Shown: positions 1 to 11,952 of the stretch, one piece after another
How the letters are laid out: the number at the start of each line of letters is the position of its first letter
How positions within the stretch are numbered: the stretch's first letter is position 1
NCBI GenBank assembly: GCA_902797195.1
Contig: CADBRY010000101.1
Location: 1-11,952 of the forward strand
Source of the DNA: an uncultured Eubacteriales bacterium
GTDB taxonomy: Bacteria > Bacillota > Clostridia > Peptostreptococcales > Anaerovoracaceae
DNA: 11,952 bases
Reading direction: 5' to 3'
The notes under the pieces: generated by a model
The model's database searches: none
Seen by the model: the letters and a program-made list of their open reading frames with translations, nothing else
Told to the model about the DNA's origin: nothing
Program-made: the position numbers and the translations under genes

Positions 1-72
1 AGCTGCATAGTAGCTATCAAAGACAGTAGATATAACCTGGACAAGCAATTGTCCGAGGCTATCATGGTATAG
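1..72 (+). CDS. feoA: C-terminal end of a FeoA-like protein (partial)
   Basis: The first 23 codons in frame 1 are open and end in TAG at 70-72. The peptide reads SCIVAIKDSRYNLDKQLSEA and then IMV. It resembles the last strand of the small SH3-like FeoA domain, which usually ends in a pattern like 'iaIr...i.L....A..I.V'. The stop codon overlaps the AGGAGG ribosome site of feoB and lies 12 bp before the feoB start, which is the usual feoA-feoB arrangement. FeoA is a small cytoplasmic protein needed for FeoB-dependent Fe(II) uptake. The fragment is too short for certainty, and the call rests partly on context. Confidence 0.62.
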   Translation, partial: SCIVAIKDSRYNLDKQLSEAIMV

Positions 73-84
73 GAGGAAAGTATT

Positions 85-2100
85 ATGAGAATTGCATTTG
101 CCGGAAATCCCAATAGCGGCAAAACCACCATGTACAACGCCCTTACAGGCCGAAGCGAAAAAATAGGCAACTGGGGCGGTGTTACAGTAGGAACCAAAGA
201 GTTCAACATCAAGGAGGAATTCGCAGGAGGAAAGGAAGTCATCGCAGTTGACCTGCCCGGAGCCTACTCCATGTCCCCCTTTACACCTGAAGAAGGTATC
301 ACCAGCGAGTACGTGCGCACTTCAAATCCCGATGCCATCATCAACATCGTGGATGCCACCAACCTGAGCAGATCCCTCTTCTTCACCACCCAGCTTCTGG
401 AGCTCGGTATCCCTGTTGTAGTCGCACTGAACAAGGCCGACATCAACAGCAAGGAAGGCACAAGTATAGATGTACAAAAGCTTTCCGATAAACTCGGATG
501 CCCTGTGTTCGAAACAACTTCCACGGAAGGCAAAGGGCTCAGAGAAGTTATTGCAAAGGCAATATCTCTTACGGGCGGCAAACAGTCAGCCCCCTATGTG
601 CAGGCGGACATCGACCTGAATGACAAATCCGCCGTAGACGCAGAAGACAGAAAGCGCTACAGCTTTGTAAACGAAATAGTTTCCGGCGTTGAAACCAGAA
701 AGACCCTGTCATCGGAGACCAGAGGATCCGATAAGGCCGACGCCGTTTTGACAAATCCCGTTGCCGGCATACTCATCTTTGCCGGAATCATGTATCTGGT
801 ATTCTGGATATCTCAGGCATGGCTTGGACCCCTCGTTGCCGACTGGCTCGTAGGATGGATCGAGGCATTCCAGGGATGGGTCGCAGGAAGACTTGAAAAC
901 AGCCCGGCGATTTTATCCGCTCTCCTTGCCGACGGTATCGTAGGAGGCGTGGGAGCCGTTGTGGGATTCCTTCCCCTTGTTATGGTCATGTACTTCCTGA
1001 TCGCACTCCTTGAAGACTGCGGTTATATGGCCCGTGTAAGTGCGGTAATGGATCCGATCTTCAAGAGAGTTGGTCTTTCCGGCAAATCCGTCATTCCTGT
1101 TGTTATTGGAACAGGCTGCGGCATACCGGCGATCATGGCCTGCCGTACCATAAGAGATGAAAGAGAAAGAAGAGCCACTTCCATGCTCACAACCTTCATC
1201 CCCTGCGGCGCAAAGATCCCGGTCATTGCCCTCTTCGCAGGAGCATTCTTCGCCGGAGCCGGCTGGGTAAGCACCCTGAGTTATTTCCTTGGACTGCTTC
1301 TGATCTTCCTGGGCGCTCTGCTGATCAAGTGGATCACCGGATACAAGTACAGAAAATCCTTCTTCATCATGGAGCTGCCCAAGTGGAAGGCACCCAGCAT
1401 CAAGTTCGCATTCAAATCCATGATGGAACGTGCCAAGGCTTACATCATCAAAGCCGCAACCATCATTCTTGTATGCAATACAGTAGTTCAGATAATGCAG
1501 ACATTCAACTGGAGCTTCCAGGTAGTTGAGGAAGGTGCTGAGGACACATCGATCCTGGCATCCATCGCATCGCCTTTCGCACTCCTTCTTATCCCTCTGG
1601 GATTTGGAGTATGGCAGCTTGCGGCGGCAGCTATCACAGGCTTCATCGCCAAGGAAAATGTCGTTGGTACTCTGGCGGTAGTATACGGCCTTACCGCATT
1701 CATCGACGTTGACGAACTTGAGATGACCGGAGGAGCAAACAACGTAGCCGTAGCTATGGGACTCACTTCCGTAACGGCTCTGGCATACCTCTTCTTCAAT
1801 CTCTACACGCCTCCCTGCTTCGCAGCTATCGGAGCTATGAACTCCGAGATGAAGAGCAAGGCATGGCTCTGGGGCGCAATCGGACTCCAGCTGGGAACCG
1901 GATACACCGTCGCATTCCTGATCAATCAGGTTGGAACCCTTGTAACAGAAGGACACCTGGCAGCAGGTTTCGTTCCCGGACTCATCGCGGTCATCCTCAT
2001 GGTGGCAGCAGTGATCCTCATCGGCAGGAGAACGAGAGCTCACTTCGATGAGCAGTATCGTCTGCACAAAGACGAAGTGGCACAAGGCGCAGCAGCGTAG
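85..2100 (+). CDS. feoB: FeoB ferrous iron transporter
   Basis: This is the Fe(II) uptake permease of the inner membrane, with an N-terminal GTPase domain. The G-protein motifs are all visible: G1 GNPNSGKT (residues 7-14), G2 GVT (32-34, in NWGGVTV), G3 DLPG (56-59), G4 NKAD (116-119) and a G5-like TST (145-147). A helical linker follows to about residue 220. The membrane core then carries the Gate-type motifs CGYMARVSAVMD (312-323), GTGCGIPAI (342-350) and FIPCGAKIPV (371-380), and a late NLYTPPC motif. The conserved cysteines of the core are present. The length of 671 aa fits the shorter clostridial FeoB forms. AGGAGG at 71-76 sets the ATG at 85. The gene sits directly after a FeoA-like tail and before a FeoB-associated protein, so it is part of a feo operon whose promoter lies outside the window. 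A Fur or other metal-sensor site cannot be seen here. Confidence 0.97.
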   Translation: MRIAFAGNPNSGKTTMYNALTGRSEKIGNWGGVTVGTKEFNIKEEFAGGKEVIAVDLPGAYSMSPFTPEEGITSEYVRTSNPDAIINIVDATNLSRSLFFTTQLLELGIPVVVALNKADINSKEGTSIDVQKLSDKLGCPVFETTSTEGKGLREVIAKAISLTGGKQSAPYVQADIDLNDKSAVDAEDRKRYSFVNEIVSGVETRKTLSSETRGSDKADAVLTNPVAGILIFAGIMYLVFWISQAWLGPLVADWLVGWIEAFQGWVAGRLENSPAILSALLADGIVGGVGAVVGFLPLVMVMYFLIALLEDCGYMARVSAVMDPIFKRVGLSGKSVIPVVIGTGCGIPAIMACRTIRDERERRATSMLTTFIPCGAKIPVIALFAGAFFAGAGWVSTLSYFLGLLLIFLGALLIKWITGYKYRKSFFIMELPKWKAPSIKFAFKSMMERAKAYIIKAATIILVCNTVVQIMQTFNWSFQVVEEGAEDTSILASIASPFALLLIPLGFGVWQLAAAAITGFIAKENVVGTLAVVYGLTAFIDVDELEMTGGANNVAVAMGLTSVTALAYLFFNLYTPPCFAAIGAMNSEMKSKAWLWGAIGLQLGTGYTVAFLINQVGTLVTEGHLAAGFVPGLIAVILMVAAVILIGRRTRAHFDEQYRLHKDEVAQGAAA

Positions 2101-2116
2101 TATACTATGGGCGCAG

Positions 2117-2213
2117 GCGCGCAGAAACACACTTGCAGGCGCGCACGTCGAACAGACTCGCTCGCGCGCACGTTGAACATACTCGCTCGCACGCACGTCG
2201 AACAGACTCGCAG
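2117..2213. repeat. GC-rich 25-bp tandem repeat between feoB and the next gene
   Basis: Three consecutive 25-bp units lie at 2139-2163, 2164-2188 and 2189-2213. They are built on GCGCGCACGTCGAACAGACT followed by CGCT(C). Copies 1 and 3 differ at only a few positions. A degenerate first copy (GCGCGCAG...) starts at 2117. The period is not a multiple of three and the stretch lies between the feoB stop and a well-placed downstream start, so it is not coding. Its composition is clearly more GC-rich than the flanks. Function is unknown. Confidence 0.9.
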
Positions 2214-2225
2214 AAAGGAACTGAG

Positions 2226-2417
2226 ATGTTGGCAACCGTTATCGCAACTCTGGCAATCATTACAGCAGTATATCTGGCTGTAAGGTACATATACAAAGAG
2301 AAGAAAAAAGGCAAGGCCTGTATAGGCTGTCCCTACTCCGGTTCATGTTCCGGCACTAAGGACCTTGAGAATTTCCATCTTTGTCACAGCACCGACCAGA
2401 GTGGAGAACAACAGTAG
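2226..2417 (+). CDS. FeoB-associated Cys-rich membrane protein
   Basis: This is a 63-residue protein with one N-terminal membrane helix (about residues 2-22), a lysine-rich positive stretch KEKKKGK (24-30), and a short tail with four cysteines: C32 and C35 in CIGCP, then C41 and C53. This layout matches the FeoB-associated Cys-rich membrane protein family found next to feoB in Clostridia. Its exact role is not established; a part in handling Fe(II) or stabilising FeoB is usually suggested. The frame is open further upstream, to 2133, but that part runs through the tandem repeat. The ATG at 2226 is preceded by AAAGGA (2214-2219) and places the membrane helix at the N-terminus, so it was chosen. 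It is the last gene before a terminator and so probably the last of the feo operon. Confidence 0.85.
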   Translation: MLATVIATLAIITAVYLAVRYIYKEKKKGKACIGCPYSGSCSGTKDLENFHLCHSTDQSGEQQ

Positions 2418-2472
2418 GCCGATCACAGAACGTCCAAACATACACTCATTCAAAATATTAATGAAACACGCG

Positions 2473-2503
2473 AAAACCCCGGTGTGAATGCGCCGGGGTT
2501 TTT
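2473..2503 (+). terminator. Rho-independent terminator of the feo operon
   Basis: AAAACCCCGG (2473-2482) pairs perfectly with CCGGGGTTTT (2493-2502) around a 10-nt loop, and the T run extends to 2503. It lies 55 bp after the stop of the FeoB-associated gene. The A run before the stem means it could also work in the opposite direction, but no gene reaches it from that side. Confidence 0.87.
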
Positions 2504-2538
2504 CGTGGCCCGGCTCGGCCGCCTCACCGCTGTTCCGG

Positions 2539-2797
2539 TGCAAACATTTGCTTTTAAGATGCTTGTTGACACAGAAACGTTGCCTTTCCATGCTCTGGAA
2601 GGGGATTTTACCCTCCAAAGTGTAAATGATTTTTTTATCTTGTGGCATTGACATAAAAAACAGCAAAAACAGTGTCAACGAGATGAGTATAATTTGTCGT
2701 TTACATTTTGAGCCTAAAAATGTCCTCAAAACAGGCTGTTTTCAGGGTTTTCAGAGGCGCAAAATGTCAACGGCGCCCTTAAGAAAACTTTTTTACA
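2539..2797. repeat. Intergenic element A: four TGTMAA-N21-TTKACA units
   Basis: This fills most of the 477-bp gene-free stretch 2418-2894. Four units, each 33 bp, begin at 2539 (TGCAAA/TTGACA), 2621 (TGTAAA/TTGACA), 2673 (TGTCAA/TTTACA) and 2765 (TGTCAA/TTTACA). In each, the left box and the right box are exactly 27 bp apart, start to start. Unit starts are 82, 52 and 92 bp apart. Boxes extend outward into a longer similarity: TTTACATTTTGAGCCT at 2700-2715 and, on the other strand, TTGACATTTTGCGCCT (2755-2770). The gap between units 3 and 4 has a central palindrome AAAACAG-G-CTGTTTT. Only the first box departs from the pattern, by one base. A second copy of this architecture, reversed, lies at 6433-6691. 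Small open frames in the region have no ribosome site. Function is unknown. Confidence 0.85.
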
Positions 2798-2811
2798 CTA
2801 GAAAGCCGGCG

Positions 2812-2840
2812 TGGACGGGGGAAAGTTCCTGATATAGAAT
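2812..2840 (+). promoter_or_regulatory. Possible weak promoter for the agmatinase gene
   Basis: TGGACG (2812-2817, 4/6 match to the -35 consensus) lies 17 bp before TAGAAT (2835-2840, 5/6 match to the -10). It would start transcription about 45-50 bp ahead of the ATG at 2895. The match is modest, and promoter activity from within element A just upstream is equally possible. Confidence 0.3.
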
Positions 2841-2894
2841 AAAAATCAGAGAATCTAACTTAATGACAACTGCTTAAACAAGGAGGACCGCAGT

Positions 2895-3827
2895 ATGAAG
2901 AAGTTAAACGAACACGCTCTCAAAGCCGGAACCTGGTTTGGTCTTAACAAGCCCGATGCAAAGGCAACGGAGGTGGATGCTGTCATTTTCGGTATTCCCT
3001 ACGACGGGGGAGTCAGCTACAGAGGCGGAGCTTCCGAAGCACCCGACCTTCTAAGAGCAAACACGGATCACGCCACACCCTGCACTGAGAGACTGGATTA
3101 CTTCGATGATTTTACGGTCCTTGACGGCGGCAATTTTGATAGCGAAGACAGAGATGAGATTTTTGCTGAAGTCCAGGATTACGTTGAATCACTTGTGCGG
3201 GATGGAGTCCGCTTCACAATGGTCGGCGGCGACCACTCGGTCACCATCCCCGTGGAGCGAGGTATAAACGCGGCCCTTGACGAACCCTTTGGCATAATCC
3301 ACATCGACGCCCACATGGACCTCAGCCTTGAACTTGAAGGAGATCCACTTTCCCACGGCTCCACGGAACAGAGAGCCCTGGAACTTTCAAATATCCAGTC
3401 GGAGAAAAACCTTTATTTCATAGGTATCAGATCCATAGAGCCGGACGAATTCGAATTTACAAGAGGAAAAAACATACAGGTAAAGACAGCTTTTGACTGC
3501 CACAAAGAAGGTATCGAAGCCGTCGCAGATGACTGCATTGAAAAAATGAAAGGATTCAACAAGGTCTATCTCACCTTTGATATAGATGCCCTGGATCCCG
3601 CCTATGCGGCAGGAACCGGGACGCCCCAGTTTGGCGGCCTTACATCAAGAATGGCCATGACCCTGATCCAAAGGCTCTTCAGAGAGCTTAACATCATCGG
3701 CTTCGACGTTGTGGAGATCGCTCCCCCTCTGGATGATTCTCTTGCATCAATGTACGCAGGGAGAAAAATCATCACCGAAGCCTGGGGGATCTGGGCTGAG
3801 GAAATTGGAAAGCTCAAAAAGTTTTGA
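2895..3827 (+). CDS. speB: Agmatinase-family ureohydrolase
   Basis: This is a 310-residue cytoplasmic enzyme of the arginase/agmatinase (ureohydrolase) fold. The two-manganese site is complete: GGDHS (111-115), DAHMD (138-142), SHG (153-155), DIDALD (229-234), and the later GFDVVEIAPP with E274. Agmatinase hydrolyses agmatine to putrescine and urea. DAHMD in place of the commoner DAHTD, and the general breadth of the family (guanidinobutyrase, guanidine hydrolase, formiminoglutamase), mean the substrate is not proven. The start at 2895 follows a strong AGGAGG (2881-2886). Its last 14 bp overlap the 3' end of the converging hydrogenase gene. It stands alone, without other polyamine genes in view. 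The APC permease 3.5 kb away could be related in function, but that is only a guess. Confidence 0.87.
   Translation: MKKLNEHALKAGTWFGLNKPDAKATEVDAVIFGIPYDGGVSYRGGASEAPDLLRANTDHATPCTERLDYFDDFTVLDGGNFDSEDRDEIFAEVQDYVESLVRDGVRFTMVGGDHSVTIPVERGINAALDEPFGIIHIDAHMDLSLELEGDPLSHGSTEQRALELSNIQSEKNLYFIGIRSIEPDEFEFTRGKNIQVKTAFDCHKEGIEAVADDCIEKMKGFNKVYLTFDIDALDPAYAAGTGTPQFGGLTSRMAMTLIQRLFRELNIIGFDVVEIAPPLDDSLASMYAGRKIITEAWGIWAEEIGKLKKF
3814..3827. other. Palindromic convergent stop-codon overlap
   Basis: TCAAAAAGTTTTGA has perfect arms TCAAAA/TTTTGA. Its right end is the TGA of the plus-strand agmatinase gene, and its left end, read on the minus strand, is the TGA of the hydrogenase gene. Both proteins end in Phe-stop. 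The hairpin is too short and A/T-rich to be a convincing terminator. Confidence 0.9.
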
Positions 3828-5334
3828 TTGATTTCTTATCCGAGGTGTCGCCAAATGCGTCTACCGCCGCTATGTCGGCAGGTCCATGAGTCACGCAGGC
3901 GGCACCTCCCACGCATCCGCCTTCGCATATCATCCCTTCGATAAAGTTGTTGGGAAGAACACCCTTCTTGGCTCTCATAAGGGCCGACCTGCATTTATCC
4001 ACCCCGTCGCACACTATCGGATTGAATTCAAGATCCTCGTATCCACGCTCTTCTATCACCCTGGCCACAGCCTCGGATACCCCTCCTGTTCTTGCGAACT
4101 TGCGCCCGTAGCCGGAGGCTTTGAGGTGTACTTTTGCCTCGTCGTCAGTTGTCTTTGCATCGGCTTCTTGGACATCCGTTGCCTTTGCATCTGATGTTCC
4201 TGCCTTATGCAAGGGAGCCCGGCACACCACCTGAGAAAACTCCGACTCCTCGAGGGAAGGCACATCGATGTCCCTGCTGTCGATCAAAGCCTGCAGCTCC
4301 TCAAAAGTCATGACGTAATCAACATAGCCTGAAACCTCCGGCTTCCTTATCTCTCCTTTTTTCGAAGTGCAGGGCCCGACAAACACCACCTTGCATTCCG
4401 GATCCTCGTTTTTTATCGCCTTTGCAAGAGTTATCATGGGAGAGTGGCTGGAGGAAATATTGTCTTTCAGCTCGGGGAAATTGTTCTTCACATAGGTCAC
4501 GAAAGCCGGACAGCACGAGGAAGTCAGAAAACCTTTTTCCTTGAGCTCCTCGGCCTCGCCCCAGGCCACCATGTCCGCGCCTACCGCCGTCTCCTCAACA
4601 TAGTCGAATCCCAATTCCCTCATGGCGCTGACTATCTGACCGGTGCTTGCGTACTTGAACTGCCCTGCGATAGCCGGGGCAACGATGGCGTGGATCTTAT
4701 ACTTCGTCCCTCCCTCTCCGGCGATGATCAATCTGATAATATCCGTTATGCTTGACACATCCAGCGTGGCTCCAAAGGGACATTTGTACACACACTCGCC
4801 GCACCTCATACATTTATCGGGATCGATGGACATCTCTCCCTGAAGCTGGCGGATGGCTTCCACCTTGCAGGCCCGCTCGCATGGTCTCTTGAGATTCGCA
4901 ATGGCATCATAGGGGCACACGTTGTAACATCTGCCGCACTCGACGCACTTGGTCTTGTCTATGTGAGCCCTTTGCTTGTCATCGAATTCCACCGCACCCT
5001 TTGGGCACACCTCGCTGCAGCTGTGGGCCAGGCATCCTCTGCAAAGGTCCGTTACCACATACCCCGCTTCAGGGCACTCGTCGCAGGCGATGTCTATGAT
5101 CTGGATCACGTTGGGATCTTCCTTGGTTCCACCCAGAGCTTTTCTCATTCTCTCCGCCACGATGGCTCTGTCTTTGTATATGCAGCAGCTCATTGTGGGT
5201 TCCCCTTTTTTAACTATGGTATTGGCGATCTCATTGAACACCATGAAAGGGTCGCTCTGGTTCCAGGTATGTCTGGCCAGTTCTCTCAAAACCTTGTATT
5301 TCAGCTGCTGAACGTTCGTATCAAAGGAAACCAT
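3814..5334 (-). CDS. [FeFe] hydrogenase, group B type, with N-terminal ferredoxin clusters
   Basis: This 506-residue protein joins ferredoxin-type iron-sulfur domains to an H-cluster catalytic domain. Cysteine sets visible are CxxC (84, 87), C98-C101-C106-C110, CxxCxxCxxxC at 130-140, C152/C156, and CxxCxxCxxxC at 175-185. The H-cluster motifs are TSSCCPAF (271-278), GPCTSKKGE (320-328), and CEGGCVGG (470-477), giving the expected cysteine ligands. CEGGC, rather than the CPGGC of classical group A enzymes, together with TSSCCPAF and YGRKFARTGGV, fits group B, a clostridial group of less well-known physiology. It would oxidise or produce H2 with ferredoxin, or act as a sensor. An acidic, Ala/Lys/Asp-rich insert sits at about 376-405. 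The ATG at 5334 has the site GGAGGTAGG just upstream. It appears monocistronic. Confidence 0.9.
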   Translation of the reverse strand: MVSFDTNVQQLKYKVLRELARHTWNQSDPFMVFNEIANTIVKKGEPTMSCCIYKDRAIVAERMRKALGGTKEDPNVIQIIDIACDECPEAGYVVTDLCRGCLAHSCSEVCPKGAVEFDDKQRAHIDKTKCVECGRCYNVCPYDAIANLKRPCERACKVEAIRQLQGEMSIDPDKCMRCGECVYKCPFGATLDVSSITDIIRLIIAGEGGTKYKIHAIVAPAIAGQFKYASTGQIVSAMRELGFDYVEETAVGADMVAWGEAEELKEKGFLTSSCCPAFVTYVKNNFPELKDNISSSHSPMITLAKAIKNEDPECKVVFVGPCTSKKGEIRKPEVSGYVDYVMTFEELQALIDSRDIDVPSLEESEFSQVVCRAPLHKAGTSDAKATDVQEADAKTTDDEAKVHLKASGYGRKFARTGGVSEAVARVIEERGYEDLEFNPIVCDGVDKCRSALMRAKKGVLPNNFIEGMICEGGCVGGAACVTHGPADIAAVDAFGDTSDKKSIKTF

Positions 5335-5357
5335 ATCCTACCTCCGGGCTCTCCTGA

Positions 5358-5377
5358 TCCTTGTTGGTCCTTGTTGG
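5358..5377 (-). repeat. Tandem 10-bp repeat in the hydrogenase leader
   Basis: Two perfect adjacent copies of CCAACAAGGA (minus-strand sense) occur in the predicted 5' untranslated leader, 24-43 bp before the start codon. Each contains AAGGA, which resembles a ribosome site. The true ribosome site, GGAGGTAGG, lies closer to the start. Confidence 0.8.
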
Positions 5378-5406
5378 GAATTTTGTTATTTTTTTAACAC
5401 ACTTAG

Positions 5407-5435
5407 AATGTACCATAGCCCCTGATGGATTTCAA
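5407..5435 (-). promoter_or_regulatory. Predicted promoter of the hydrogenase gene
   Basis: On the minus strand, TTGAAA (complement of 5430-5435, 5/6) is followed after 17 bp by TACATT (complement of 5407-5412, 4/6), which has a TGG just before it, an extended -10 element. Transcription would start near 5400 and give a leader of about 65 nt. Confidence 0.6.
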
Positions 5436-5438
5436 GCC

Positions 5439-5473
5439 TAATTTGCGGTTTCACCATAATTAATTTGCAGTTT
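5439..5473. promoter_or_regulatory. 13-bp direct repeat, candidate operator in the divergent promoter region
   Basis: TAATTTGCGGTTT (5439-5451) and TAATTTGCAGTTT (5461-5473) differ at one base and are 22 bp apart, about two helical turns. They lie just upstream of the hydrogenase -35 box, and the second touches the -35 box predicted for the plus-strand gene at 5560. Two in-phase sites in such a place suggest a regulator that could control both directions. The regulator is not known. Confidence 0.5.
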
Positions 5474-5500
5474 GTTATATGGCCATGTATTTGATAAAAT
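5472..5500 (+). promoter_or_regulatory. Predicted promoter of the 5560 operon
   Basis: TTGTTA (5472-5477, 4/6) is followed after 17 bp by TAAAAT (5495-5500, 5/6). Transcription would start around 5507, about 50 bp before the chosen start codon. This also argues against translation starting at the ATG at 5479, which would lie inside the promoter. Confidence 0.45.
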
Positions 5501-5559
5501 TGGTGGCAAATAAATCACGTTGCCTTTACACGGCAGCGATAATAAAAAGGAGATCTAAG

Positions 5560-6048
5560 ATGGCTTGTTTTTTAGTTCCTGCCGCAGAGGCAGTCGTAAC
5601 AACGGTTATAGAGAAGGTGCTTGATTCGAGTAACCGCCCTGCAAAGGCAACGAAGCTGCCGGCTAACAGCGCAGCGACCGGCACAGCTGACAGCACGGCT
5701 GACCTGTCGGAGGCCCACGGTGCAACGGCGGCCGTAGCAGACGCGTCGACAAACACGGGTGGCATGAGAAATAAAATCGCCCGCAAGCTAAGATGGCTGA
5801 ACATCATGCTGTGGGGCGGCTCTGCCCTGCTCTGCCTTGAACATATCTGGCATGGGGAGGTCGTTCCCTTTCCGCCGTTTTTGACGGCAATGCCCGATCC
5901 TGTCGCAAGAGCTGAAATGCTCCACGAGATGGCTACTGCCGGAGTACTGATGGCGGTCTTGATCACTGCCGCTTGGGGCGGCATGGTGGCCATATCGACC
6001 ATGATAGAGAAAAGGAACCCTGCCGTCTCCCGGGAAGCCGGCGAGTGA
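5560..6048 (+). CDS. Conserved-looking membrane protein of unknown function
   Basis: I do not recognise a named family. The 162-residue protein begins MACFLVPAAEAVVTTVIEKV, a hydrophobic/amphipathic stretch, followed by an Ala/Thr/Ser-rich low-complexity linker (about 25-66). A basic stretch (RNKIARKLR, 70-78) leads to a membrane helix at about 80-96. After a loop with HIWHGE (95-100) and MLHEMATAG (120-128) comes a second helix at about 126-148, and the tail is charged. The histidines next to the membrane segments could bind a metal or cofactor, but this is a guess. The frame is open from 5479; the ATG at 5560 was chosen because of AAGGAG at 5547-5552 and because the earlier ATG lies in the predicted promoter. 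It is 25 bp from the next gene, a likely partner, and divergent from the hydrogenase. Confidence 0.75.
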   Translation: MACFLVPAAEAVVTTVIEKVLDSSNRPAKATKLPANSAATGTADSTADLSEAHGATAAVADASTNTGGMRNKIARKLRWLNIMLWGGSALLCLEHIWHGEVVPFPPFLTAMPDPVARAEMLHEMATAGVLMAVLITAAWGGMVAISTMIEKRNPAVSREAGE

Positions 6049-6073
6049 CCACCCGGATTATTGGAGGTTTAGT

Positions 6074-6376
6074 ATGACTCTTCTTATAACGCTGTTTGCA
6101 GCAATAATTACTACTATCATATGGTACACTCGGGCAGGTGCCAGGGAGCTTAAGATAGGCACCCTCGGTTTGATGTTCTGGGGTGCATCCATTATGTGGA
6201 CTGTTGACGCGATATTTGGCTTTGCCGAAGAAGGTGCAGACTTCTTTGTTCCCACCTCCGGCAAAATTCTGAACGATGCCTTTTTAGGTTTTTCCGTAGT
6301 TGCTCTGGGTCTGTTGATCTGGACTGTCATCATGGTGGCCAAAGATCCAAAAGGCATCATCAGATCCATACGGTAA
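6074..6376 (+). CDS. Small three-helix membrane protein of unknown function
   Basis: This 100-residue, very hydrophobic protein has three predicted membrane helices: about residues 2-18, 27-48 (with GLMFWGASIMWTVDAIFGF) and 69-88 (FLGFSVVALGLLIWTVIMVA). It ends in a short basic tail (KDPKGIIRSIR). GGAGG at 6063-6067 is well placed for the ATG at 6074. It follows the 162-residue membrane protein after 25 bp with no terminator between, so the two are probably co-transcribed and may form one membrane complex. I recognise no named domain. It is followed by element B, with no clear terminator in between. Confidence 0.78.
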   Translation: MTLLITLFAAIITTIIWYTRAGARELKIGTLGLMFWGASIMWTVDAIFGFAEEGADFFVPTSGKILNDAFLGFSVVALGLLIWTVIMVAKDPKGIIRSIR

Positions 6377-6432
6377 ATTCGGGTCCGCGGCATTCTAAGC
6401 AGCTGTGAATCCAGTTCAGTTGGCCTCTAAAG

Positions 6433-6691
6433 TGTAAAATCCTCTTTTAACAGAGCCATTTGACATTTTGCCCTATCAAAACAGCTTATTTTTTGGTAAA
6501 ATATGGCAAAAAAACGCGCTTGGGTGTAAATTCCATTCTCAGAATCGATTGTTGACACAGAAATCCCTCATTTCGATGTCAACTCGCCCCTCTATCCTCG
6601 CCGTTTACACTTTGAGCCTGAAAATCAGCCATTTCCTCATGTAAAAGCAACTGATTTGTGTCAATATCTCTTCTGAAAAAAACTTTTTACA
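6433..6691. repeat. Intergenic element B: four TGTMAA-N21-TTKACA units, reversed relative to A
   Basis: This fills most of the 333-bp gene-free stretch 6377-6709. Units of 33 bp begin at 6433 (TGTAAA/TTGACA), 6525 (TGTAAA/TTGACA), 6577 (TGTCAA/TTTACA) and 6659 (TGTCAA/TTTACA). All have the boxes exactly 27 bp apart. Unit starts are 92, 52 and 82 bp apart, the mirror image of element A, and the total length is the same, 259 bp. Box contexts agree with inversion: TTTACACTTTGAGCC (6604-6618) matches the complement of CTCCAAAGTGTAAA (2613-2626), and TTGACATTTTGCCC (6460-6473) matches the complement of GCGCAAAATGTCAA (2757-2770). An extra single TGTAAA at 6640 has no partner. The element ends 18 bp from the stop of the converging DUF202 gene. 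Confidence 0.85.
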
Positions 6692-6709
6692 CTGGCAGGG
6701 CGGTCCGCG

Positions 6710-7099
6710 CTACTTGGAGTTTGGATCGGCTGCATCTATTTCCTTGAGCTGTTTGCGCACGAGGGTATAGTGGATGAGTCCTATGCCGGCGATCACCGGA
6801 GACAGGAGCATAATAATGAAGCCAAGTGTGATTATTGTTTCGTTGTTCACGAATTCAAACATTCCGATCCCCGCGGCAAGGGCGCCTATGGCTGTGCGAA
6901 GATAGGAAAGCAGAGTCTGGGAGTTGGCAAGTGCTGTCCTCTCCAGAGCCATATAGGTTCTTTCCTGAGCCATGGATGTGCGCTCCTGGGCCATGGATGT
7001 CCGTTCATGAGCCATTGCGGTACGCTCACTGGACATTTCTGTCCGTTCATATGCCATTTCATCCTGACTCATTCCTTTTGAAATCTCGTTTTTATTCAC
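6710..7099 (-). CDS. DUF202-type membrane protein with N-terminal MAxERTx heptad repeats
   Basis: This is a 129-residue protein. Residues 15-56 are six consecutive seven-residue repeats of the form M-A-x-E-R-T-x, with a decayed seventh (57-63). Then comes the DUF202-like core: LLSYLRTAIGALAAGIGMFE (about 63-82), a first membrane helix, and a second one at about 88-114. The family's normal entry motif (ERT-LA--RTA) looks like the source that was multiplied to make the repeats. The function of DUF202 proteins is not known. The start is GTG at 7097-7099, supported by AAGGAG at about 7109-7114 on the minus strand. Methionine 10 is a possible alternative start. Transcribed alone, divergent from the APC permease. 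Confidence 0.82.
   Translation of the reverse strand: MNKNEISKGMSQDEMAYERTEMSSERTAMAHERTSMAQERTSMAQERTYMALERTALANSQTLLSYLRTAIGALAAGIGMFEFVNNETIITLGFIIMLLSPVIAGIGLIHYTLVRKQLKEIDAADPNSK
6932..7057 (-). repeat. 21-bp coding tandem repeat (six MAxERTx heptads)
   Basis: Six in-frame 21-bp units encode residues 15-56 of the DUF202-type protein. The two central units (MAQERTS, MAQERTY) are the most alike, while the outer ones have diverged at the x positions, so M, E, R and T look selected. Confidence 0.88.
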
Positions 7100-7132
7100 A
7101 ACAGGTCATCTCCTTATAGTTAGTCTGTCATC

Positions 7133-7180
7133 AGGGGCCGTCACCGGGGTCTCCCGCCGAGAGCAGTCACCGGCGCCCCT
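7133..7180 (-). other. GC-rich stem-loop in the DUF202 leader
   Basis: AGGGGC (7133-7138) can pair with GCCCCT (7175-7180), enclosing a small inner hairpin (TCTC 7150-7153 with GAGA 7159-7162) and two direct copies of GTCACCGG (7140-7147, 7166-7173). It has no T run, so it is not an obvious terminator. It would sit near the 5' end of the minus-strand transcript. Confidence 0.35.
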
Positions 7181-7182
7181 CA

Positions 7183-7213
7183 CTTATACAGAAAAGTGTG
7201 AAAATTCATTCAA
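7183..7213 (-). promoter_or_regulatory. Possible promoter of the DUF202-type gene
   Basis: On the minus strand, TTGAAT (complement of 7208-7213) lies 19 bp before TATAAG (complement of 7183-7188). The spacing is on the long side. The -35 overlaps a perfect palindrome at 7209-7220. Confidence 0.35.
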
Positions 7214-7220
7214 ATTTGAA
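7209..7220. promoter_or_regulatory. Perfect 12-bp palindrome TTCAAATTTGAA
   Basis: This is a perfect inverted repeat between two divergent genes, overlapping the predicted minus-strand -35 box and upstream of the plus-strand promoter. It is suited to bind a dimeric regulator, but A/T-rich palindromes of this size also occur by chance. Confidence 0.3.
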
Positions 7221-7253
7221 GGTTTCTACATATATGATATCACAAAAAATCAT

Positions 7254-7282
7254 TTGTAAATGCACAACTTTTATCGTATACT
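7254..7282 (+). promoter_or_regulatory. Predicted promoter of the APC permease gene
   Basis: TTGTAA (7254-7259, 4/6) is followed after exactly 17 bp by TATACT (7277-7282, 5/6). Transcription would start near 7289, about 50 bp before the ATG, in an A/T-rich stretch. Confidence 0.6.
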
Positions 7283-7337
7283 TAAACGGTAAAAAGTTAT
7301 ATTTATCACAATCTGTTATGAAAAAAGGAGAAGTAGT

Positions 7338-8786
7338 ATGGAAAACAGTGGAGGAAGACAAGAGCTACAACGTTCTCTTAATATGAAGGACGTTTTAGCA
7401 TTGGCCTTCGGTACCATGATCGGTTGGGGCTGGATCATGCTCGCCGGATCATGGGTAGGCAATGGTGGATCGATTGGCGCTATGATCGCATTCGGATTCG
7501 GTGGCGTCATGGCTATCTTCGTAGGACTGACTTATGCTGAGCTGACTCCGGCACTGCCGCTTTCCGGTGGTGAGCTGGTATTTGCTTATCGTGCTATGGG
7601 TTACAATGCATCCTGGTTCACAGGCTGGATGATCACCCTGGCATACCTGGGTGTTGCTGCATGGGAAGGACCTGCACTCGCACGTGCACTCGAGTTCCTG
7701 TTCGCAGGAGTTCTGCCTCAGGGCGCAACACTTTGGACTATTCAGGAATCAAATGTTACAACAACATTCCTTCTGATTTCTATCATCGGTGCTGTCGTTA
7801 TGACAGTCATCAACTACAGAGGTGCTAAGGCATCAGCTGTATTCCAGACTGTTGCAACAGTTGCTATGGCTATCGGTGGTATTTCATTCGCGATCTGCGG
7901 AACCGCAACAGGTTCTATCGACAACTTCATGCCTCTGTTCACAGACGGTAAAGGTTTCGTAGCAGTTATGCTTGCTGTACCTGCTATGTTCGTAGGTTTC
8001 GATGTTATCCCGCAGGCTGCTGAGGAAATGAACATTCCTCTCAGCAAAATCGCTAAAGTTCTGATCATCTCGATCTGCATGGCAGCATTCTGGTACTGCC
8101 TGATGATCTTCGCAGTTGCAATCTCAACTCCGGGTGCTGTACTTGATGGATTCGTAAGTGATGACACTGCAGTTCCTGTAGCAAACTGCTTCGCATATGC
8201 AATGAACAACCCGATCTTCGGTAAGATCATGATCATCGCTGCAATGTGCGGTATCCTGACTTCCTGGAACGGATTCGTTGTTGGTGCATCCAGAGTTATC
8301 TTCTCAATGGCAAGAGCCAAGATGCTGCCTGAGCTGTTCTCAAAGGTACATCCTCAGTATGGTTCCCCCGTTGGTGCTGTTGTACTCGTTGGTGTATTCA
8401 CCTGCCTGTCACCGCTCCTCGGAAGAAGCGCTCTTGTTTGGCTGGTAGACGCAGCTGCATTCGGTACAGTTGTAGCATACTTCATGGTATCAATGTCCTT
8501 CTTCTTCCTGAGAAGAAAAGAGCCTGAACTGGAGAGACCTTTCTACACCAAGGCCGGTACATTTGTCGGTATCATGGCTATGCTGGTAGCACTCTTCTTC
8601 CTGTGGCTGTATCTGCCCGGACTCGGAAGCCCTGCTCCTCTTACAACAATTGAGTGGGGTCTGGTCGGCGGCTGGATCATCCTGGGTGTTATCCTGTTCT
8701 TCGTCAACAAGATGGGTAAGAACGGTAAGACTCCTGCTGAAGAGATTGAGTATCTCATGTTCGGTGACGAATACAAGAGATTCTAA
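7338..8786 (+). CDS. APC-family amino acid/amine permease
   Basis: This is a 482-residue integral membrane protein with about 12 helices. The first helix carries the broken, glycine-rich APC signature (LAFGTMIGWGWIMLAG, about 22-37), and YAELTPALPLSGGELVFAY (66-84) fits the family's helix 2-3 motif with its P and GG. FVGFDVIPQAAEEMN, in the middle helices, is also typical of the superfamily. Such proteins exchange or import amino acids or amines by ion symport; the substrate cannot be read from sequence. Start: AAAGGAG at 7325-7331, then ATG 7338. It is a single-gene unit with its own promoter and terminator. Codon use looks biased towards GCT, GTT, GGT and CGT compared with its neighbours, suggesting high expression. 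Confidence 0.9.
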   Translation: MENSGGRQELQRSLNMKDVLALAFGTMIGWGWIMLAGSWVGNGGSIGAMIAFGFGGVMAIFVGLTYAELTPALPLSGGELVFAYRAMGYNASWFTGWMITLAYLGVAAWEGPALARALEFLFAGVLPQGATLWTIQESNVTTTFLLISIIGAVVMTVINYRGAKASAVFQTVATVAMAIGGISFAICGTATGSIDNFMPLFTDGKGFVAVMLAVPAMFVGFDVIPQAAEEMNIPLSKIAKVLIISICMAAFWYCLMIFAVAISTPGAVLDGFVSDDTAVPVANCFAYAMNNPIFGKIMIIAAMCGILTSWNGFVVGASRVIFSMARAKMLPELFSKVHPQYGSPVGAVVLVGVFTCLSPLLGRSALVWLVDAAAFGTVVAYFMVSMSFFFLRRKEPELERPFYTKAGTFVGIMAMLVALFFLWLYLPGLGSPAPLTTIEWGLVGGWIILGVILFFVNKMGKNGKTPAEEIEYLMFGDEYKRF

Positions 8787-8802
8787 GCCAATTGACAAAT
8801 CC

Positions 8803-8833
8803 AAAAGGAGCGGTATACTACCGCTCCTTTTTT
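8803..8833 (+). terminator. Rho-independent terminator of the permease gene
   Basis: A 13-bp perfect stem (8803-8815 with 8819-8831, core GGAGCGGTA/TACCGCTCC) has a 3-nt loop and a run of six T (8828-8833). It begins 17 bp after the permease stop. The A run on the left means it may also work in reverse. Confidence 0.92.
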
Positions 8834-8865
8834 CATTCCTTTTCCCTTTGAATTCCAGCCCCCGA

Positions 8866-8871
8866 TATACT
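8866..8871 (+). promoter_or_regulatory. -10 box very close to the PAP2 start codon
   Basis: TATACT (8866-8871) lies 11 bp before the ATG at 8883, with no good -35 at the right distance (TTGAAT at 8848 is only 12 bp away). If used, the transcript would have a leader of about 5 nt. No clear ribosome site precedes the ATG. Confidence 0.4.
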
Positions 8872-8882
8872 ACAATTGAAGC

Positions 8883-9536
8883 ATGGATACCACACTTATC
8901 AGACGGGCAGCGGCGATCCTTGCCGCCGGGCTTTTTATCTTTATTCTTGCATGCGTAATGATGGACAAGACATCGGCTTTTGATGACCCCATCAGGTACG
9001 CCTTCTACGAGTTGAGAAGCGATGGGCTCACCTTTATTGCAAAGGCAATCACCCACACTGCCGACAAAGTCTTTATCATTGCCCTTTGCATAATTCTTCT
9101 GATCATACCAACAACAAGGATCAAATTTGGCCTTCCTCTGTCTGCGGGAGCACTTGGGGTAACGATAATAAACCAGATTATCAAGCACCTGATCCAGCGT
9201 CCAAGACCTGAAATAGCCCACCTTGTATCGGAGACCGGCTACTCATTTCCAAGCGGACATTCCATCACCAGCATGTTTTTCTATTGCCTTTCCATATGGC
9301 TTGTCCGAAGATATGTTACAAATAAAAAAGCAAGGGACGTTCTGACCGTTATCCTTGCTATACCCATGCTTCTTGTTGGCCCCACCAGGATCTATCTGGG
9401 AGTCCATTATCCTACAGATGTGCTGGCGGGCTGGTGTCTGGGATTCTTTATATTTGCAGTAGTCGTTGAAGTGATCCGGGTTCTTTCTCAGCGAAGAGCT
9501 GAAGGAATCGGCCCCAATGATCGTTTATCTTTGTAG
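8883..9536 (+). CDS. PAP2-family membrane phosphatase
   Basis: This 217-residue membrane protein has about five to six helices. All three phosphatase motifs are present: K101-x6-RP (KHLIQRPRP, 101-109), PSGH (123-126) with the catalytic histidine, and TRIYLGVHYPTD (168-179), where the usual SR is TR, ending in the conserved H175 and D179. Members dephosphorylate phosphatidic acid, undecaprenyl pyrophosphate or related lipids on the outer face of the membrane. The substrate here is open; recycling of undecaprenyl pyrophosphate is one possibility. The ATG at 8883 has no evident ribosome site but gives a proper first helix (8-26); a start at M26 or M27 would delete it. The gene ends 2 bp from the stop of a converging HAD gene. 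Confidence 0.9.
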   Translation: MDTTLIRRAAAILAAGLFIFILACVMMDKTSAFDDPIRYAFYELRSDGLTFIAKAITHTADKVFIIALCIILLIIPTTRIKFGLPLSAGALGVTIINQIIKHLIQRPRPEIAHLVSETGYSFPSGHSITSMFFYCLSIWLVRRYVTNKKARDVLTVILAIPMLLVGPTRIYLGVHYPTDVLAGWCLGFFIFAVVVEVIRVLSQRRAEGIGPNDRLSL

Positions 9537-9538
9537 CG

Positions 9539-10186
9539 TTATAATATTTTCAGGAGATCCCCGGGTTTTCTCAATATGTGATCCGGAGCCTCTTCCGGTG
9601 AAAAGTCATCCAGTTCCTTGCCCCCAAGGGTTATGGACCAGTCTACAAGGGCTGATGTGACCCCCGCATTCTTTGCGCAGAGAATGTCGTGGATGGTGTC
9701 ACCTATCAGGATCGTACTTTCCGCTTCTCCGCCGATCTTATCAAGGGCCATATCCACCGCCTGAGGATCAGGCTTGGGTCTGGTCACATCGTCTGCGGTG
9801 ACTACATATGCGAAGTATTTCCCCAGATCAAATTCTTCCAGTGCCTGTTCCGTGGTGAATCTGAGCCTTGAAGTGACCATGGACATTGTATATCCACGGC
9901 TGTAAAGCTCATCCAAAAGCTCCCTTATCCCGGGAAAGAGCTTAATGTTCTTAATGAAGTTCTCCCTCTGAAAATTCCTGTATATTGGCAGGGAGACATC
10001 AAGAGAAACCTCCGGGAAGAAGTTCTCCATACTGTAATCGAGAGTCTCCCCGAAGGTTGCAATAATATCATCTCTATTTGCCTCTTCTCCACGAAGAGTT
10101 CTGAATGTATGCTGCCAGGACTGGATAATAATCTCGTTAGTATCCATTATCGTCCCGTCAAAATCAAACAGAATTGTTTTTATCAT
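9539..10186 (-). CDS. HAD-family phosphatase, PpaX/phosphoglycolate phosphatase-like
   Basis: This is a 215-residue cytoplasmic hydrolase with the HAD motifs: I DFDGT (8-12, D8 nucleophile and D10), II VTS (104-106), III K138 in RPKPDP, IV GDTIHD (162-167). A helical cap (about 15-85) lies between motifs I and II, as in subfamily I. The N-terminus (DGTIMDTNEIIIQSWQHTF) and length are close to pyrophosphatase PpaX, but phosphoglycolate phosphatases look similar, so the substrate is uncertain. It starts 9 bp after the stop of the lipoprotein gene, with only a weak ribosome site (AGACAGAGAT), so translation may be coupled to the upstream gene. Confidence 0.88.
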   Translation of the reverse strand: MIKTILFDFDGTIMDTNEIIIQSWQHTFRTLRGEEANRDDIIATFGETLDYSMENFFPEVSLDVSLPIYRNFQRENFIKNIKLFPGIRELLDELYSRGYTMSMVTSRLRFTTEQALEEFDLGKYFAYVVTADDVTRPKPDPQAVDMALDKIGGEAESTILIGDTIHDILCAKNAGVTSALVDWSITLGGKELDDFSPEEAPDHILRKPGDLLKIL

Positions 10187-10195
10187 ATCTCTGTC

Positions 10196-11770
10196 TTACT
10201 GAGCAGGTGTCTCAGCGGCACGATAGATCAGGCTGATATTCTTGAGTGTCATCTCATTCTTATCGTAGGTCACCTTGACCTGATCGCCGGCCTGCGGGAA
10301 GTATCCGCTGGGATATGATGCCTCGGTAAGGCTCAGCCTCATTGTAGCTCCCCCGTCGACTTTGATCGTGCAGCTTGAACCGTCGCCACCTACGATCACG
10401 CCATTGGCATCAACGATGGTCTCGGTCTCATCTGCCGGCTGATCCTCGAATGTAGGCTTGGTCTCAGGCTGAGTGGGCTCGGTCTCCGTCTGAGTGGGCT
10501 CGGTCTGAGTCTCCGTTTGAGTGGGCTCGGTCTGAGTTTCCGTCTGAGTAGGCTCGGTCTGAGTCTCCGTCTGAGTGGGCTCAGTCTTTGTAGGCTCAGT
10601 CTTCGTGGGCTCGGTCTTTGTCGGCTCAGTCTTTGTGGGCTCGGTCTTCGTGGGTTCCGTCTTTGTAGGCTTCTGAGTTGGCTTCTTTGTCTCAGTAGCC
10701 TTTGTGGTAGCCTTTGTGGTAGCCTTAGTCGTTGCCTTTGTAGTAGCCTTTGTAGTAGCCTTTGTAGTAGCCTTTGTAGTAGCCTTTGTGGTAGTCTTTG
10801 TTACGTCAGGGGCAACCTTATCCTTGTGGCAGTACAGTACGACAGCCTGAGGATCCTTACCCAGTTCTCCGTCATATGTTACCGTGACCATGTGGCCCTT
10901 CTTGAAATAATCCTTGTTTCTAAGCTCAGTCTGTCCGTTGACTTTGAATCTGTAGGAATTCTTGGTGGTGTCAACATTTATGGTCTTTGATGAAATATTG
11001 GAGATCCAGCCGTCAAGAACATAATACTGTTGTGTATTCTTTCTTGTGATCTGGATGGACCTGGCTACAGGATCCCTGTCAAGGTCGCCTGTGTAGACCA
11101 TCTTGACTCTGTCACCCACCTTGAGTGATGTGGCGTCACCGCCGATTATAGTATCCTCGGTGAGCTTGAATCTGTGTGCATCCGCAGAATCAAGACTTAC
11201 CATAACGCTGTCTCTGGTCACTTCCGATACCGTACCGTAGACGGTAACAAGAGTAGCTTCGTCCCTGTCTTCCAGAACAACGATACTGATCGCTATGGGC
11301 TGTTCACTGAGATCACCATCATAAGTTACGGCAACATAGTCACCCTTGGTCAGATTGCCTTCCACAGCCGTATCGTCGTTGCGGTCAAAGGTCACCGTCA
11401 GCGTCTCGGTTTTGACGGTTATGGATTTTTTATTGATGTCCGTCGCTTCTCCCGCCAGCACCTGGAGCTGTTTTTTGTGCTCCTTGAGTTCCACCTTGTC
11501 GGCTATAAATCTGCCGCCTTTTTCCGTATACTCGATCTGGATCTCGTCTCCTATGGTCAGCTTGCTTTCTTCTCCAAGCTCATAGGCGGTCTTGTCGGAT
11601 GTTGAGAACAGCATGGTAGCCGTCTCGCCTCTGACAACCAGTCTATCTCCCTGTGCATCCACAAGCTCTCCCGCGAATGATTTCTCCATCACGTTTTGAC
11701 AACCGGTCAGAGTGCCGATCATCAGGAGAACTGTCACCAGTGCGAGAAGAATCTTTGATTTTTTCTTCAT
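10196..11770 (-). CDS. Threonine-rich repeat lipoprotein with five small beta-type domains
   Basis: This is a 524-residue surface lipoprotein. The N-terminus is a lysine-rich signal peptide ending in a lipobox (GTLTGC), so the protein would be lipid-anchored at the outer face of the membrane. Four related domains of about 65-75 residues follow, each with a pattern of 'G.v..i....i.v' then 'l..GD.v.v.Y.GdL...P.a..i', and a fifth similar one lies at the C-terminus. Between the fourth and fifth sits a low-complexity Thr-rich linker of about 110 residues (TKAT x8, KTEPT x6, then QTETQTEPT-type units). The domains resemble small OB-like or SH3-like beta barrels, but I recognise no named family. The frame is open three codons further to a GTG at 11779, but GGAGG abuts it, so the ATG at 11770, 8 bp after the GGAGG, is preferred. 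Confidence 0.85.
   Translation of the reverse strand: MKKKSKILLALVTVLLMIGTLTGCQNVMEKSFAGELVDAQGDRLVVRGETATMLFSTSDKTAYELGEESKLTIGDEIQIEYTEKGGRFIADKVELKEHKKQLQVLAGEATDINKKSITVKTETLTVTFDRNDDTAVEGNLTKGDYVAVTYDGDLSEQPIAISIVVLEDRDEATLVTVYGTVSEVTRDSVMVSLDSADAHRFKLTEDTIIGGDATSLKVGDRVKMVYTGDLDRDPVARSIQITRKNTQQYYVLDGWISNISSKTINVDTTKNSYRFKVNGQTELRNKDYFKKGHMVTVTYDGELGKDPQAVVLYCHKDKVAPDVTKTTTKATTKATTKATTKATTKATTKATTKATTKATETKKPTQKPTKTEPTKTEPTKTEPTKTEPTKTEPTKTEPTQTETQTEPTQTETQTEPTQTETQTEPTQTETEPTQPETKPTFEDQPADETETIVDANGVIVGGDGSSCTIKVDGGATMRLSLTEASYPSGYFPQAGDQVKVTYDKNEMTLKNISLIYRAAETPAQ
10471..10802 (-). repeat. Three nested coding tandem repeats (27, 15 and 12 bp)
   Basis: On the plus strand there are 27-bp units at 10492-10518, 10519-10545 and 10546-10572 (with a 21-bp shortened one at 10471-10491). 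Six 15-bp units follow at 10575-10664, and eight 12-bp units at 10695-10790 with a decayed ninth to 10802. They encode QTETQTEPT, KTEPT and TKAT repeats. The near-identical copies suggest recent expansion and likely length variation between strains. Confidence 0.9.
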
Positions 11771-11847
11771 AGCCAGCACCTCCTTTTAACTACAGAACTG
11801 TAACTATGTATCCCCTTCAAATTAATTGGTATAAATGATTGCATATC

Positions 11848-11877
11848 ATTATACACCTCTTGTAATCGGTTTGGCAA
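11848..11877 (-). promoter_or_regulatory. Predicted promoter of the lipoprotein-HAD operon
   Basis: On the minus strand, TTGCCA (complement of 11872-11877, 5/6) lies 18 bp before a perfect TATAAT (complement of 11848-11853). Transcription would start near 11841, with a leader of about 70 nt. Confidence 0.68.
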
Positions 11878-11920
11878 TAATATCCAAAATAATTGTTTGA
11901 ATTGTTCGAATCTCTTTCTG

Positions 11921-11952
11921 TGCTATACTATTTTCATATAAAACAACGGGAG
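11921..11952 (+). promoter_or_regulatory. Extended -10 promoter and ribosome site leading out of the window
   Basis: TGCTATACT (11921-11929) is an extended -10 element (TGn plus TATACT). The best -35 candidate is poor (TTGTTC, 11902-11907, 16 bp away). GGGAG at the very end (11948-11952) looks like a ribosome site, so a plus-strand gene probably starts a few bases beyond the window, divergent from the lipoprotein. Confidence 0.5.

Follow-up and report, generated by a model that had tools for sequence, protein, structure and literature searches.

The described systems closest to the one presented here are the RAYT/REPIN partnerships of REP-associated tyrosine transposases with REP doublets, in which a chromosomal, fast-evolving DNA-processing protein is found together with short, dispersed intergenic repeats that form species-specific sets, and in which the letters of the repeats vary together with the protein that their genome encodes (PMC3116915, PMC2817692, PMC8049555). 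In one of these articles, RAYTs are single-copy (PMC8049555). The present work concerns a window (the whole stretch of DNA that was analysed) of 11,952 nucleotides from an uncultured Eubacteriales bacterium of the family Anaerovoracaceae (GenBank assembly GCA_902797195.1, contig CADBRY010000101.1, positions 1 to 11,952), which carries two copies, A and B, of an array of four bipartite units. One rigid geometry links these dispersed repeats, a family without a name, with a widespread and likewise unnamed gene family, that of a nuclease-like protein. The explanation that we favour as a whole, with somewhat better than even confidence, is a self-addressed nuclease-like protein with dispersed arrays, a RAYT/REPIN-like arrangement built on an unrelated enzyme.

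Anatomy and genomic distribution of the array

A sequence-only reading of the window had described four units with half-sites 27 bp apart in element A, and seven exact pairs plus one single-base variant over A and B. All four A units were found at these places, the one at 2539 starting with TGCAAA, one base off the pattern, and B consists of four exact units (6433, 6525, 6577, 6659). The features, with the units given without strand, are:

2539..2797, minus strand in nuclease-gene orientation (92/52/82): element A, four-unit array, from box positions and spacings
2539..2571: A unit 1, TGCAAA-N21-TTGACA, one base altered
2621..2653: A unit 2, TGTAAA-N21-TTGACA
2673..2705: A unit 3, TGTCAA-N21-TTTACA
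2765..2797: A unit 4, TGTCAA-N21-TTTACA
2574..2592, plus strand: conserved non-box stretch of A (AAACGTTGCCTTTCCATGC region), well kept among solo copies and partly repeated after the extra outer unit u0
6433..6691, plus strand in gene orientation (92/52/82): element B, four-unit array, from box positions and spacings
6433..6465: B unit 1, TGTAAA-N21-TTGACA
6525..6557: B unit 2, TGTAAA-N21-TTGACA
6577..6609: B unit 3, TGTCAA-N21-TTTACA
6659..6691: B unit 4, TGTCAA-N21-TTTACA

Because the unit starts are spaced 82/52/92 in A and 92/52/82 in B, with 259 bp from the first to the last box, A and B are one 259-bp element in opposite orientations. Each window unit joins one TGTAAA-type half and one TGTCAA-type half, in the order ++--. 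TGTMAA-N21-TTKACA matches the window 9 times when up to 2 mismatches are allowed, against a mean of 1.58 and a maximum of 7 in 200 dinucleotide-preserving shuffles. Likeness extends slightly beyond the boxes, over about 2517-2818 for A (compared with the copies on contigs C79 and C173) and about 6416-6698 for B. The units and their rigid pairing had thus been recognised correctly from the window; the single four-unit array and the nuclease-like gene had not been reached.

The genome assembly of this bacterium (1.55 Mb, 300 contigs, 78% complete) contains 57 exact matches to TGTMAA-N21-TTKACA and none to the reversed control, so hits outside A and B, which the sequence-only reading had allowed might prove to be at chance rate, are far above it. 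The same pattern matches 20 of the 41 genomes of the genus, this one included: 57 times here, 8 times in G030 and once or twice in each of the other 18, with 0-2 matches for the reversed control. A search with the core pattern, which consists of the two middle units and was allowed 3 mismatches at most, gave 13 cores in the genome and none in the control, and the number of complete four-unit arrays is also 13: 12 solo copies and one, on contig C112, lying over a gene. Partial arrays occur on C4, C71, C133 and C182, and some copies have extra units 69-73 bp outside the array, mostly TGTAAA/TTTACA. Ten of the 12 complete solo copies overlap no open reading frame of at least 100 aa; the copy on C79 and window element A overlap short ones, taken as spurious. 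In collections of viral contigs and genome contigs, where this genome is perhaps absent, the exact core pattern had 0 matches. A variant of the arrangement was seen in locus L070 (3065-3781, same genome), where an array with an altered second unit is tandemly duplicated with a period of 395.

Beyond the boxes, the solo copies have another conserved stretch in common, about CAGAAACGTTGCYTTTWCATG, which follows unit 1 and recurs behind the extra outer unit (window 2574-2592; in L059, L064 and L069 left of unit 1), and which the C112 gene array lacks. It is possibly the site of a second factor.

Box conservation, helical phasing and spread of the geometry

Over the 13 complete copies (12 solo and C112), the majority letter is kept at 98.2% in the boxes, 60.5% in the interiors and 68.1% in the gaps. 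The closest pair, C98 and C176, differs at 0 of 48 box positions and at 25 of 211 others. A search pattern based on boxes could favour copies with good boxes; a box-blind BLAST search with element B returned 11 matches, of which seven are long (the window copy, C243, C176, C251, C98, C60 and C36) and the rest fragments. The same contrast was examined in arrays at orthologous places in species of the genus g75, keeping the six pairs with a gap difference below 45%. In these, differences amount to 23/367 in the boxes (6.3%), 124/482 in the interiors (25.7%), 120/593 in the gaps (20.2%) and 249/1156 in the flanks (21.5%), and boxes differ from the rest of the element with a Fisher P of 5e-14. Three pairs were dropped as seemingly misaligned or non-orthologous (L125-L108, L136-L129, L139-L131); with all nine, the counts are 89/539 in boxes, 230/707 in interiors and 269/849 in gaps. 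Because the boxes stay conserved in place long after insertion, the arrays fit poorly with dead insertions. Separately, interiors lie above flanks in several orthologous pairs (L142/L120, L142/L128, L143/L117), as in the overall 25.7% against 21.5%, as if they mutated faster.

The distances between adjacent units (34-130 bp; sets of this genome, g75 and G127) take few values: 129 of 133 equal 52, 61, 62, 72, 73, 82, 83 or 92 bp, with a best period of about 10.2 bp, which is one helical turn. These steps of about 10 bp argue for a protein complex on one face of the DNA. Together with the rigid 27-bp half-site spacing, the conserved boxes and the drifting 21-bp interiors, they uphold the earlier preference for protein recognition of paired half-sites, and the sequence comparisons support the view that the arrays reflect protein-DNA recognition rather than an RNA hairpin.

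A structured RNA or a single-stranded DNA hairpin would predict folding, and A and B do fold better as RNA than their shuffles (z of -3.9 with 0/200 for A; z of -2.7 with 2/200 for B), which is a point against protein recognition. These folds can be explained by the near-palindromic order of the boxes. In the alignment of 12 copies, covariation contributes -0.45 of -16.41 kcal/mol; some double change is seen for 12 of the 47 predicted pairs, and pairs formed by boxes hardly vary. Spacing steps of 10 bp and non-pairing interiors of constant length are equally foreign to a hairpin, and Rfam gave three sub-threshold matches, all at 8794-8927 and none in A or B. RNA structure was rejected as the main explanation, the alignment fold being nearly without covariation, and we consider a hairpin of either kind extremely improbable. 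The absence of Rfam matches in the elements, together with an open-access literature in which our searches found no description of the repeat or of its link with a gene, agrees with the statement of the sequence-only reading that no named repeat family follows this rule.

The four-unit geometry was also found, with different box letters, in at least 3 other genera of the family. The core pattern itself, at 3 mismatches or fewer, matches 3 of 349 family genomes (this one, G297 and G300; one control match, in G290), and among 49 genus genomes it matches this one alone. Six g75 species were examined with a GTTGTA-type unit, giving 21/19 matches in G297, 26/24 in G298 and 47/41 in G300 (controls 0-1), and 0-3 in G295, G296 and G299. 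The g75 arrays are spaced 83/52/83, with variants 73/62/82, 83/61/83, 83/62/72 and 82/62/83. In G127, four-unit arrays have GGTGTGAA-, GGTGTAAA- and TGTGTATA-type boxes at 82/52/82 or 83, and an eight-unit array (L166, 9023-9541; 82/52/82/52/83/52/83) adjoins a four-unit array with other letters between purine-metabolism-type genes. G006 has an array of 82/52/81 with ATGTTGAT boxes, and G306 has one array, close to the g75 type. A letter-free version of the core pattern matches 7 of 393 genomes of the order (12 times in G000, twice in G300, once each in G298, G306, G006, G127 and G224; controls 0), with none in the 185 order genomes outside the family.

Some of these loci deserve a description of their own. 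L174 (G306:C48) and L128 (G297:C188) agree almost completely in array and neighbours, and their genomes are placed in different genera; transfer and assembly contamination are the alternatives. L110 and L126 have only two units: the middle pair is missing, and unit 1 is joined to unit 4 at a distance of 83 bp. In G224 (L165, G224:C24, about 7200-7850; L149), a run of GTTGTA-type boxes with a period of about 52 bp is longer than any four-unit array; the general scan of L165 missed it. L107 and L109 come from two species and have an array at the same position, flanked by pilB-like and pilT-like genes.

The nuclease-like gene and the array over its start

In the genome of the window, the gene under the array on C112 (14-946, minus strand) begins inside the array. 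It belongs to a family of proteins of about 280-330 aa with a PD-(D/E)XK-like C-terminal domain, which stood out among the recurring neighbours of arrays; the EamA transporters beside four loci are ordinary neighbours. The family has a match in 58 of the 62 genomes tested. Its C-terminal domains match PADLOC PDC-S68 (E down to 7.2e-30). Pfam searches at E up to 10 with three members returned nothing for two of them and only FeoB_Cyto at 0.12 for the third, hence no tyrosine or HUH transposase match, and neither Pfam nor NCBIfam gave a match to a TnsA-type nuclease. In the protein A2 the conserved acidic residues are E177, D207 and E221, K238 is invariant, and there is no lysine two places after E221. 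The family looks like a PD-(D/E)XK-type nuclease-like protein, with cleavage as a predicted activity. For the N-terminal domain, modelled with a pLDDT (predicted local distance difference test) of 93.5, the strand pattern had suggested an AP2/arm-type DNA-binding domain; this guess is unproven, the best Foldseek matches having E above 0.08 and including prefoldins, with 3rmp (arm domain of a P4-like integrase) at E 0.23.

The position of the array over these genes was studied with a letter-free detector, which scores the agreement of the eight half-sites of a four-unit array with allowed spacings (true arrays 52-68, shuffles at most 49 in the first control). Among the three top-scoring arrays of each of 80 loci, 24 reach at least 52; 16 of these have the beginning of unit 4 exactly 34 nt downstream of the start codon's A, and the others lie elsewhere. 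Of 54 loci whose start is known and whose sequence is long enough, each tested at 41 offsets, 22 were best at exactly 34 nt, against 1.3 expected, and in a further set of 40 genes, partly the same loci, 14 of the 22 arrays scoring at least 50 have this offset. Unit 4 is fixed in codons 12-23, and the upstream spacings vary between genes in helical steps. The box letters of gene arrays vary widely (GGTGTGAAT, CGTGTTGAT, ACTGACAAA, ATTGACAAA, GTTGGCAAA, GTTGCAGAT and others); GGTGTGAAT and GTTGTAAAA, for example, are two differing types. The C112 gene array has the 92/52/82 spacing at the 34-nt offset, and each of its units, as in the solo copies, pairs a TGTAAA-type half with a TGTC-type half.

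Within a genome, these letters match. Half-site profiles were built from solo arrays, with the gene loci C112, C27 and C14 excluded, and scored on 30 hand-picked gene arrays (mostly scoring at least 50). The solo profile of the window's genome placed C112 at rank 1 with 7.0 (next 4.3, median -7.6); that of g75 placed G300:C27 first with 9.8, followed by L185 (7.5) and G298:C15 (6.3); and that of G127 placed G127:C14 first with 13.8, the next being L176, a close relative, with 13.0. In all three array-rich sets, the best of the 30 gene arrays thus belongs to the genome or genus of the solo copies. A conserved host DNA-binding protein of fixed specificity, for which the nuclease gene would be one target among others, could account for the same geometry in several genera, but letters that differ between genes, including genes of a single genome and those at a single conserved locus, and that in solo copies track the gene array of their own genome or genus, make such a factor very unlikely.

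The conserved locus just mentioned lies in the ornithine aminomutase operon, where the gene of locus L189, from the Anaerovoracaceae genus Emergencia, is found between oraE and a mutL-like gene; 16 other loci have the same flanks. Its box letters change between species (ACTGACAAA, ATTGACAAA, GTTGGCAAA, GTTGACTT). When L189 is compared with L195, identity is 89% in the neighbours and 76% at the end of the gene, the middle of which does not align. An oraE-mutL query matched 123 of 213 searched genomes, and 40 junctions were fetched, of which 11 have a nuclease match (intact or partial, in six genera) and 29 have none. The presence or absence of the gene at this place is thus real, and the gene here is old, fast-changing and often lost. 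The junction, measured over loci L361-L400, ranges from 84 bp to more than 2 kb between genomes and looks insertion-prone.

These losses bear on the possibility that a solo array is the remnant of a gene-plus-array copy whose coding part has disappeared. Solo arrays do retain the geometry of the gene orientation (92/52/82), and partly lost nuclease genes exist at the oraE-mutL junction (for example in G299, G303, G164 and G248). However, 25 of the junctions have sufficient length for the detector. Of the 10 that match the nuclease, 5 carry an array scoring above its shuffles; of the other 15, 0 do, so that gene loss at this place leaves no solo arrays; furthermore, the solo stretch CGTTGCYTTTWCATG is absent from the C112 gene array. 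We hold an origin of the solo arrays as remnants to be improbable.

Elsewhere in the window, a GC-rich repeat of three copies with a 25-bp period follows directly after feoB (2126-2211), and a predicted lipoprotein-like gene with long Thr-Lys/Glu-Pro-Thr repeats occupies 10196-11779 on the minus strand.

Candidate mechanism and relation to known systems

In the mechanism that we propose, the array would be a docking platform for a sequence-specific DNA-binding protein, one dimer of which would hold the two inverted half-sites of each 33-bp unit; with the four units on the same helix face, four dimers could be gathered in one complex. The binding protein would most likely be the nuclease-like protein whose gene starts in such an array (here on C112), and occupation of the gene array would restrain the expression of its own gene. 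Solo arrays, including A and B, would be non-autonomous copies spread in the genome by the nuclease-like protein and would stay recognisable through continued recognition. The array family, its geometry and helical phasing, the fixed position at the gene start, the letter match within genomes and the box conservation are read from the sequences themselves. Binding by the nuclease-like protein, self-repression, cleavage and mobilisation are what we infer from them, and not with equal firmness: the protein, on indirect support, very probably binds its array, and its mobilisation of the solo arrays, the weakest step, is put at slightly less than an even chance.

Binding could also serve another role, in which the nuclease-like protein, or an inactive relative, would be a transcription or chromosome-organising factor, with the gene array as operator, the solo arrays as regulon or anchors, and a spread that is ancient or incidental. 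The boxes kept at fixed orthologous places after insertion, the multi-site, helically phased arrays and the position of element A, 98 bp upstream of the agmatinase start, would suit such a factor. Element B, in contrast, is flanked by the ends of two convergent genes, where an operator would be poorly placed. Few genomes of the family are array-rich, and the places of solo copies differ between genomes. We therefore regard a purely regulatory or organising role as unlikely, without dismissing it as firmly as the other alternatives.

Mobility is suggested by the closest solo copies, which are up to 90% identical inside and 20-42% identical in the 50 bp of flank on either side. Several observations weigh against the self-addressed nuclease-like protein that we favour. 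Target-site duplications are not convincing: none goes beyond permutation in the genome of the window (n=12), and in g75 (n=20) three 5-mers are shared at one offset, for a permuted maximum of 2. No empty site for A or B was found with a 5.2-kb window query, which matched 37 of 49 genomes (this one included), relatives being aligned over single genes and not across A or B; the g75 loci compared for empty sites all bear an element. The structural matches to the restriction-endonuclease-like fold are of middling strength, many genes of the family have no visible array, and the gene is far more widespread than array-rich genomes.

An ordinary miniature inverted-repeat transposable element (MITE), moved by an unrelated transposase and having its place at the nuclease gene by coincidence or regulatory borrowing, would likewise be multi-copy and intergenic with an overall inverted symmetry, and one G297 array does contain an IS256-family copy. 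This 1.6-kb split array was considered as an autonomous transposon and rejected, its interior being an IS256-type insertion: the transposase gene is inserted between array units 1 and 2 (L107, 3389-4633) and so interrupts the array. A complete element enclosing a transposase was not found, the duplications are unconvincing as said above, and the array is locked to the start codon in many nuclease genes with differing letters that match within a genome. We give a MITE of this kind very little credence.

For a wider class, we would only tentatively, and with slightly less than even confidence, propose self-addressed nuclease-like genes whose start codon lies in a four-unit target array, with lineage-specific addresses, seeding and maintaining solo copies; their enzyme would be of PD-(D/E)XK type and act on helically phased sites in double-stranded DNA, by analogy with RAYT/REPIN. 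The target letters of each protein would be predicted from its own gene start. If it is true that the protein moves the arrays, REPIN-like repeat populations arose on an unrelated enzyme and questions on their persistence become testable; if it only binds them, the arrays and the protein make up a DNA-binding system that is self-addressed, changes its specificity quickly and has dozens of anchor sites. In both cases, the protein-site pairs form a natural series that is at hand as a data set on how DNA recognition changes.

Several families of elements share part of these properties. Tn7-like transposons combine a TnsA nuclease with several TnsB sites per end; here, no transposase partner was present among the neighbours scanned at two loci, the arrays form no two-ended element, and target-site duplications are not convincing. 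Like MITEs and other bacterial dispersed intergenic repeats, such as BIME, ERIC and RU, the arrays are small, intergenic and multi-copy with an overall inverted symmetry, but they differ by an internal geometry that is constant across genera with changing letters, and by the linked nuclease-like gene. As for terminal inverted repeats of a known autonomous transposon, the loci examined contain no element in which array boxes enclose a transposase of its own, the one transposase inside an array being the IS256-type insertion. The autoregulation of restriction-modification controller proteins (PMC6237814) would be resembled by a protein that acts on paired sites over the start of its own nuclease-type gene; the present array differs in being multi-site and in having dispersed solo copies, and none of the 10 neighbouring proteins that were scanned, at two loci, is a methyltransferase.

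The likeness with RAYT/REPIN goes furthest, since here too letters follow the protein of the same genome (rank 1 of 30 in three of three sets). The differences concern the enzyme, for which Pfam gives no match to the Y1 tyrosine (HUH) transposase that defines RAYTs and which looks like PD-(D/E)XK; its number, with 1-20 family matches per genome where present instead of a single copy; the repeat, those of RAYT/REPIN being short hairpins of 20-40 bp built from two inverted REPs and the present arrays having 259 bp, four helically phased bipartite sites and non-pairing interiors; and the arrangement, REPs flanking the RAYT gene and the array overlapping the gene start at a fixed offset. The defining enzyme and the repeat form both fail to agree, so the system is not a member of RAYT/REPIN. 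Together, these comparisons point to a partnership between array and gene that is so far undescribed, and that resembles RAYT/REPIN but is distinct from it.
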